From Thermoplasmata archaeon (GTDB lineage: Archaea; Thermoplasmatota; Thermoplasmata; GCA-020350865): DNA of 64,000 nt. Both the position numbers and the translations under genes were made by a program. Positions 33,891-34,332 of the stretch are shown here, one piece after another; position 1 is the stretch's first letter; the number at the start of each line of letters is the position of its first letter. The notes beneath the pieces were generated by a model that did no database searches, was not told the DNA's origin, and saw only the letters and a program-made list of their open reading frames with translations. The DNA is taken from NCBI GenBank assembly GCA_020348445.1, contig CP070751.1, positions 190,006 to 254,005 on the forward strand, read 5' to 3'.

Positions 33891-33951
33891 AGCCCCGGGC
33901 CGCAGAAATAAGAGATAATTAGAGTTCCATTATATTTCTAGGTAAGTGGCT
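33891..33951 (-). other. tRNA-ended hairpin unit Z
   Basis: A 61-nt unit downstream of the tRNA. The outer stem is AGCCCC against GTGGCT (five of six pairs). The inner stem AGAAATA (33904-33910) pairs with TATTTCT (33933-33939). It is the most eroded unit of the array. Confidence 0.4.
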
Positions 33952-33983
33952 AATCTGGATGACAACTTATAAAAGAGGAAGAG

Positions 33984-34057
33984 TAGCCCCGAGTGGATTC
34001 GAACCACCGTCTCCGGTTCCAAGGACCGGAATGATTGACCAGCTACAACACGGGGCT
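33984..34057 (-). tRNA. tRNA-Gln (anticodon TTG)
   Basis: A 74-nt gene including the discriminator base; CCA is not encoded. Acceptor AGCCCCG pairs with CGGGGCT. The anticodon stem CCGGT/ACCGG encloses the loop CCTTGGA, which puts TTG at positions 34-36. The T-arm GGTGG-TTCGAAT-CCACT is canonical. The A1-U72 start is typical of archaeal tRNA-Gln. Two oddities stand out: position 33 is C instead of the nearly universal U, and the D-stem keeps only two firm pairs. It lies inside an array of hairpins that copy its acceptor ends. Isotype rests on the loop register set by a perfect five-pair stem. Confidence 0.85.
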
Positions 34058-34085
34058 ATTTGATTTGAACTTGTAGAGGCCAAAT

Positions 34086-34151
34086 AGCCCCTAGCACGAG
34101 GAAAAGCGATATCAAAACTGTCTCAATACTTTTCCTCCATGACACGGGGCT
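34086..34151 (-). other. tRNA-ended hairpin unit A
   Basis: A 66-nt unit immediately upstream of the tRNA. Its first ten bases are identical to those of the tRNA (AGCCCCGTGT). The outer stem is AGCCCC/GGGGCT. The inner stem is nine perfect pairs: GAGGAAAAG at 34098-34106 against CTTTTCCTC at 34129-34137. A TATA-like AGTATAAAG lies about 22 nt upstream on the minus strand (34169-34177), so transcription is plausible. Confidence 0.5.
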
Positions 34152-34178
34152 TCTATGATTAAATTCTGCTTTATACTA

Positions 34179-34241
34179 ATCCCCTATCAGAAAAAAAAGG
34201 TTATTATGTTATTAAGATTTCTTTTTTTCTACTAAGGGGCT
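34179..34241 (-). other. tRNA-ended hairpin unit B
   Basis: A 63-nt unit. The outer stem is AGCCCC against GGGGAT. The inner stem is an A-tract helix: AGA(8)G at 34189-34199 against CT(7)CT at 34221-34230, ten pairs with a bulge. It keeps the unit spacing of about 90 nt. Confidence 0.45.
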
Positions 34242-34267
34242 TTATAGCATTATATCGCAACATTCAA

Positions 34268-34332
34268 ATCCCCTTGCAGTAAATAAAGAGTTGGGAGGTT
34301 GCTGCAATTCCTTTTTTTACTACTACGGGGCT
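34268..34332 (-). other. tRNA-ended hairpin unit C
   Basis: A 65-nt unit at the rdgB-proximal end. The outer stem is AGCCCC/GGGGAT. The inner stem is GCAGTAAATAAAG (34276-34288) against CTTTTTTTACTAC (34311-34323), 11 of 13 positions paired. The six bases before its 5' end (TCAAAT) and its first eight bases are the same as those of the tRNA gene. Confidence 0.45.

Follow-up and report, generated by a model that had tools for sequence, protein, structure and literature searches.

In insertion sequences of the IS200/IS605 type, a guide strand near the foot of a hairpin pairs with a flanking site, and in the attC sites of integrons a two-block stem, an unpaired spacer and a variable end loop make up an element whose structure is conserved over its sequence; both can be likened to the hairpin modules at tRNA genes that are described here. 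The attC sites differ in that the end letters of the modules follow the acceptor of the neighbouring tRNA, with no fixed core sequence such as an R-box and no gene cassettes, and integrase domains are few in the genome. The ends of IS200/IS605 elements and the transposase-free PATEs of Haloquadratum (PMC3119063) share with the modules the features of being short, palindrome-bearing and archaeal, but the modules carry a complement of ∼9–11 nt that is fitted to each tRNA, they are tied to tRNA genes, and no parent element was found for them.

Other described systems involve the tRNA gene itself. The remnants of attachment sites in tRNA genes, i.e., the attL and attR partial tRNAs (PMC9897764, PMC8371274), also place a partial copy of one tRNA end beside a complete gene. 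Here, however, the copy lies 60–125 bp away, usually after a complement and a hairpin, it occurs on both sides of many tRNAs, and it tracks the tRNA in evolution. The copy in an att remnant would run from the crossover to the 3′ end with the discriminator; the one considered here spans nt 61–72, with a loss of identity at nt 73. Permuted and split archaeal tRNA genes (PMC3218864) present the order acceptor 3′ strand, loop, acceptor 5′ strand, and weak Rfam matches to tmRNA_permuted occur in our material; yet the tRNA gene is whole here, and what follows the extra strand is a hairpin, not a D-arm. Finally, riboswitches and T-box leaders have, like the modules, three strands able to form two alternative helices, but the switched element would in this case be the tRNA itself in cis, and not an mRNA leader.

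Att remnants, PATEs, attC sites and permuted tRNAs each fail, or leave open, at least one defining feature. In the Rfam search the tRNA alone reached the gathering score, all other matches being weak and overlapping it, and no description of such modules was found in a limited search of open-access papers. The hairpin-module architecture at tRNA genes looks like a new, undescribed one.

The array around tRNA-Gln

The array was met in a window, i.e., the whole stretch of 64,000 nucleotides that was analysed, which is part of a 5.16-Mb archaeal contig; the source genome is labelled G000 and its congener G001. The order is sampled by three genomes, one of them the congener, and loci were read as targeted stretches. 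To judge from their translations, one of the two genes beside the array is probably XTP-pyrophosphatase-like, and the other is small and of unknown function.

A preliminary description of this DNA had reported tRNA-Gln together with four co-oriented units that reuse its acceptor ends, and this arrangement was found as described, on the minus strand and at a spacing of 90–106 nt (Table 1). Its internal hairpins are likewise present in all units; when z-scores were computed against dinucleotide shuffles, the folds of W3, W2 and W1 beat the shuffled sequences, whereas W4, with a z of only −0.6, is not significant by itself and draws its support from close copies elsewhere in the genome. Copies ∼80% identical to W4 in DNA are found at locus L008, and there is a lone copy (L009), whose end stem is altered on both sides (GAGCG/CGCTC). 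ARAGORN and Rfam detect the central tRNA-Gln alone, and each unit has one hairpin in place of the D, anticodon and T arms, so that W1–W4 are not tRNAs or tRNA-like. Lying upstream and downstream of tRNA-Gln, respectively, W1–W3 and W4 represent different classes. An 11-bp perfect palindrome between W3 and the tRNA, with an 18-nt loop, was absent from the preliminary description; it is the complement arm of the upstream class, to which W1–W3 belong.

Table 1. Positions of the tRNA-Gln array and its component strands within the window
Feature	Positions	Strand	Support
tRNA-Gln (TTG), centre of the modules	33983..34057	−	ARAGORN; Rfam RF00005, 50.4 bits
W3, upstream module adjoining tRNA-Gln: 5′-end copy, hairpin (∼22-nt loop), 5′-end complement	34086..34151	−	fold z −4.8; covariance model R1, 31.9 bits; copy profile
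Copy of tRNA nt 1–10 (AGCCCCGTGT), 5′ end of W3	34142..34151	−	
W3 complement strand (GGGGCTATTTG on minus), perfect complement of tRNA leader and 5′ acceptor strand	34081..34091	−	11-nt inverted repeat (I13), 100% matched, arms 18 nt apart
tRNA-Gln 5′ leader and acceptor 5′ strand (CAAATAGCCCC on minus), target of the W3 complement	34052..34062	−	
W2, second upstream module (AGCCCC..GGGGAT, A-rich stem, ∼22-nt loop)	34179..34241	−	R1, 43.1 bits, E 3e-7; z −2.6
W1, third upstream module (AGCCCCGTAG..GGGGAT)	34268..34332	−	R1, 54.3 bits, E 8e-10; z −2.4
W4, downstream module: degenerate complement, hairpin core TATAAT..TCTTA, acceptor copy	33891..33951	−	close DNA copies; core letters common to other tRNA-linked units; own z −0.6
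W4 complement strand (TTAGCCAC), imperfect partner of tRNA 3′ end, 29-nt gap	33946..33953	−	6/9 match
Copy of tRNA acceptor 3′ strand (CGGGGCT), 3′ end of W4	33891..33897	−	sequence

The units reach beyond the array (33891–34332) and beyond tRNA-Gln, being found at many tRNAs throughout the genome. Within G000, relatives of W4 and of the array accompany three more tRNA-Gln genes and a glutaminyl-tRNA synthetase (GlnRS) gene at L008, in addition to the lone copy. The GlnRS gene (L008:2489–4193, minus strand) is of bacterial type and adjoins the tRNA-Gln modules. Its nearest named relatives are from MAGs that bear the labels Methanomassiliicoccales and Thermoplasmata, of which the closest, CP070739, corresponds to the congener, while outside Thermoplasmata the closest relatives come from Sedimentisphaerales/Phycisphaerae; the sequences suggest horizontal transfer of the gene. 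Several Thermoplasmata keep GlnRS with flanking tRNA-Gln genes. A GlnRS-linked role, prompted by the position of this gene beside the tRNA-Gln cluster, was dropped once other tRNAs proved to have units, and decoys of RNase P, RNase Z or GlnRS were set aside because the units are not tRNA-Gln-specific. Two tRNA-Gln-like stretches (L008:2116–2216, minus strand, and L010:12050–12150), on which ARAGORN is silent, have a T-arm and an acceptor 3′ strand and carry a different hairpin instead of the D and anticodon parts.

Anatomy of the modules and their hairpin core

In a downstream module the tRNA is followed by a gap of ∼24 nt, by a strand complementary to nt 66–74 of the tRNA (strand A), by one to six hairpins, and by a copy of nt 61–72. 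The gap is T-rich and measures 24 nt in 11 of the 30 well-matched cases, and mostly 23–29 nt; as such a gap could be a terminator, strand A may lie off the tRNA transcript. Over 34 tRNA–unit pairs the identity of the copy is 0.76–1.00 at nt 61–72, and since it falls from 0.76 at nt 61 to 0.35 at nt 60, the copy ends at the border of the T-stem. On the 3′ side it passes from 0.88 at nt 72 to 0.65 and 0.53 at nt 73 and 74. The copy thus takes in the 3′ strands of the T-stem and of the acceptor, and nothing else.

Strand A matches the tRNA at 36 of 42 positions when nt 73 and 74 are taken together, compared with 20 of 42 for the unit's own 3′ strand (p 4e-4), from which it follows that its partner is the tRNA; a unit-internal P1 as the main helix was rejected on the same ground. 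Where the tRNA acceptor contains a G-U pair, as at all five tRNA-Ala sites and at Arg-CCT, strand A is the Watson-Crick complement of the 3′ strand and does not repeat the letter of the tRNA 5′ strand, with one Arg-TCT site as the exception.

The upstream module mirrors this arrangement: first comes a copy of nt 1–13, then a hairpin, and then a strand complementary to the tRNA 5′ end. A copy of nt 1–11 (≥10/11) precedes 36 tRNAs; its identity is ∼1.0 at nt 1–11, as follows from the use of these positions for selection, and then 0.72 and 0.69 at nt 12 and 13 and 0.39 at nt 14, i.e., the copy stops at the end of the D-stem strand. Between this copy and the tRNA, the complement of the tRNA 5′ end is found in 27 of the 36 cases, against 5.4 expected.

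The modules also change together with their tRNAs. Between G000 and G001, tRNA-Pro(CGG) has two differences within nt 61–72, and the copy carries both of them; the acceptor change, which is the one in the range of strand A, is matched in strand A as well. Strand A likewise follows the tRNA difference at tRNA-Gly(GCC) and tRNA-Ala(CGC). Such co-change requires either selection that maintains the pairing or gene conversion that is still going on.

Regarding the hairpin core, a model with a 9-bp stem was built from 39 units that were picked partly for pairing, which inflates their paired fraction, and it counts 80 two-sided changes against 18 in shuffles. The earlier proposal of conserved structure, as opposed to decay, is borne out by these changes, by the presence of units in relatives, and by the conservation of orthologous units and their co-change with the tRNA; similarly, most unit folds are better than those of shuffled sequence. 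Many downstream hairpins have the conserved core UUAUR...UCUUAA, and the loop lengths are almost constant, as is the usual gap. Mismatches in the core stems, read on the tRNA strand, comprise 12 G-U against 68 others, while the acceptor stems of the tRNAs have 27 against 3; this scarcity of G-U is not RNA-like for the tRNA strand. In distinct arms of the stems, reading the opposite strand turns the mismatches into mostly G-U (21) and G-A (20), compared with 6 and 2 on the tRNA strand. The folding energy of the core, on the other hand, favours the tRNA strand, the antisense strand being lower in only 25 of 90 (p 1e-5). In a few units the core is inverted relative to the tRNA (L140, L097, L231 and L174). 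One subfamily of core hairpins (L228, L229, L230, L233, L239, L222:996 and L140:1179) is mostly preceded by a 9-bp hairpin of its own (GTGGCCTAT/ATAGTCCAC, 23-nt loop), and most of its copies are away from any recognised tRNA.

Distribution over tRNA genes and genomes

In G000 and G001 modules are found at tRNA-Ala, Ile, Arg, Leu, Ser, Gly, Pro, Trp, His, Phe, Asp, Glu, and Gln. A scan of the tRNA flanks of both genomes gave 31 hairpin units matching the acceptor of the very tRNA beside them, against 1.7 in shuffled flanks. Downstream complement and copy are both present at 17 of 44 tRNAs in G000, where the module counts omit one dense tRNA cluster without units, and at 13 of 31 in G001, whereas shuffled flanks give 0–0.2; upstream, copy and complement occur together in seven and four cases, respectively, against none in shuffled flanks. 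All module counts are lower bounds, because the Rfam tRNA search misses several tRNA genes that contain large introns. Such introns are seen in tRNA-Trp, His, and Phe of G000 (L225, L226 and L227), and at these tRNAs arrays of up to six hairpins lie inside one pair of end strands. A complete module is absent from about half of the tRNAs. The dense cluster (L152, G000:C1:4640571–4643566) has about twenty tRNA genes and no modules, in contrast to single tRNA genes.

Units are present in the congener and in other Thermoplasmata, so relatives do not carry merely a tRNA in these places. In G041 and G108, which belong to another Thermoplasmata family, downstream complement and copy are found together at 7 of 31 tRNAs, and the frame is retained, e.g., at tRNA-Met, Phe, Arg, and Glu, some of the hairpin cores being different ones; one further Thermoplasmata MAG (L021) has an upstream module with an 11-nt copy at tRNA-Gln. 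The combination of downstream complement and copy occurred at none of 24 other Thermoplasmata loci and at none of 10 bacterial loci. Searched at a lenient E-value, the core model gives 64 matches in G000, 37 in G001, and, across 400 genomes of the class, weak matches in 4 others; in G002 the search gave no match. Whichever explanation is true, the surroundings of tRNA genes in these Thermoplasmata contain a large structured family overlooked by annotation programs.

A few copies of the module are dispersed and have no tRNA. Four of them in G041 (L218–L221), identical over ∼115 nt and built on a two-hairpin frame, lie at non-tRNA sites and are possibly a mobile or ncRNA derivative. A locus conserved in G000 and G001 (L232:989, L248:970 and L235:1051) presents a TATA-like box, a tRNA-end-like strand (GCTGAGCCCAC), a complement, hairpins, and a copy, with no tRNA body, and is a candidate for an independent ncRNA gene.

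A proposed strand exchange and the competing explanations

The order of end, complement, hairpin, and copy permits two exclusive folds: a native tRNA beside a closed module, or a tRNA closed by the surrogate strand with its true end held in the hairpin. In constrained folding of 13 precursors the two states lie within ∼5 kcal/mol in nine, and the swapped one is lower in ten, although the presence of the copies in itself accounts for part of this closeness. On these sequences, the modules might be cis-acting strand-exchange switches in tRNA precursors, a reading to which we give slightly less than an even chance. It is the most likely one because the copies are limited to the strands that are paired inside the tRNA (acceptor plus T-stem, or D-stem), and the complements to the acceptor with discriminator and nt 74, or to the 5′ acceptor strand with the leader. 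In the closed hairpin, strand A would pair with the true 3′ end of the tRNA, and so mask it from RNase Z, the CCA-adding enzyme, and the synthetase; the copy of nt 61–72 would act as the surrogate partner of the 5′ acceptor strand and of the T-stem 5′ strand, thereby leaving the cloverleaf folded; the upstream module would act likewise on the 5′ end, with RNase P as the enzyme concerned; and the hairpin core would be a putative site at which binding or sensing shifts the balance. The excess of modules over shuffled flanks, the borders of the copies, the fit of strand A to the tRNA (also at G-U pairs), the co-change at tRNA-Pro(CGG), the closeness of the two folds, and the occurrence of the same frame in another family (G041 and G108) count for strand exchange. 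The scarcity of G-U on the tRNA strand, the inverted cores, the T-rich gap, the tRNAs without a complete module, and the tRNA-less copies count against it.

Several of these latter features suit miniature DNA elements, integrative or transposable, whose insertion at the border of the T-loop (60/61) or of the D-loop (13/14) of a tRNA gene would bring along the piece that restores the tRNA; the copy would then be an att site or target duplication, and the hairpin the structure recognised, as it is at IS200/IS605 ends or in integron attC sites. We regard such elements as a rather unlikely explanation, if a serious one. Integration does leave direct repeats of a tRNA end beside the tRNA; tRNA 3′ ends are the preferred sites of archaeal integrases, the 5′ half being used by one group (PMC8371274), and cleavage at the borders of the D- and T-loops has been proposed for them (PMC8371274), which could also set the borders of the copies. 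Tandem arrays, inverted units, and dispersed copies exist, the core stems are Watson-Crick with little tolerance of G-U, and Y1 transposases are present in the genome. Nevertheless, the units measure just ∼60–125 bp with no enzyme nearby; the surroundings of the Y1 loci contain no unit-like hairpin except for one marginal 16-bit match, so that a parent IS200/IS605 element was rejected; tyrosine integrases are few; and Cas1 is absent from G000 and G001, as well as from G002 and G108, by which a casposon or a CRISPR-like array was also set aside. Passive duplication, moreover, would retain the discriminator, whereas identity drops from ∼0.9 to 0.65 at nt 73, and the mobility of one element explains neither a complement fitted to each tRNA nor the co-change of orthologous units.

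Two further explanations deal with the pairing in other ways. A double template switch can yield strands in the order direct, inverted, direct, and the modules could be a functionless by-product of template switching in DNA and palindrome correction around tRNA genes; this order is the one observed, and near-perfect Watson-Crick arms fit mutation over selection. We consider it very improbable, given that ∼60 core hairpins in one genome share their loop letters (∼100 matches when the congener is included), that loop lengths and usual gap hardly vary, and that the copies, upstream and downstream alike, end at the borders of helices. Free-standing RNAs that mimic the tRNA acceptor, possibly transcribed on the other strand than the tRNA and with a 3′ end in common with it, are improbable too. 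The end stems of a module do read alike on both strands, arm mismatches become mostly G-U and G-A in the opposite reading, and in antisense the complement strand reads the same as the tRNA 3′ end, discriminator included; but the core folds better on the tRNA strand, which contradicts the hint that the mismatch types give of an antisense-strand RNA, and a copy of an unpaired T-stem strand is useless to a mimic. Of the roles suggested in the preliminary description, an expanded tRNA-derived repeat was right in part, while processing decoys and free tRNA mimics are disfavoured, the arms not being a plain copy of the acceptor and the units occurring at other tRNAs besides tRNA-Gln. An interaction with the adjacent tRNA fits better than mimicry of a mature acceptor, because the complement pairs with the discriminator and nt 74 and the copy runs into the unpaired T-stem strand. 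H/ACA and C/D guides were rejected, as no boxes were seen and there was no Rfam match.

Extended to the whole genome, strand exchange would amount to a set of mirror-symmetric RNA switches in cis, in which most tRNA genes carry surrogate 5′ or 3′ strands, or both, and masking strands, and the exchange controls the availability of the ends and hence maturation; we hold this wider form to be possible but doubtful. To our knowledge, regulation of tRNA supply in cis by precursor folding is known in no organism, and if the RNA reading is true, these archaea would regulate their supply in this way, tRNA by tRNA. If instead the DNA reading is true, the modules would be miniature elements of a new kind, each made to match one tRNA gene, and flanking much of the tRNA set on both sides.
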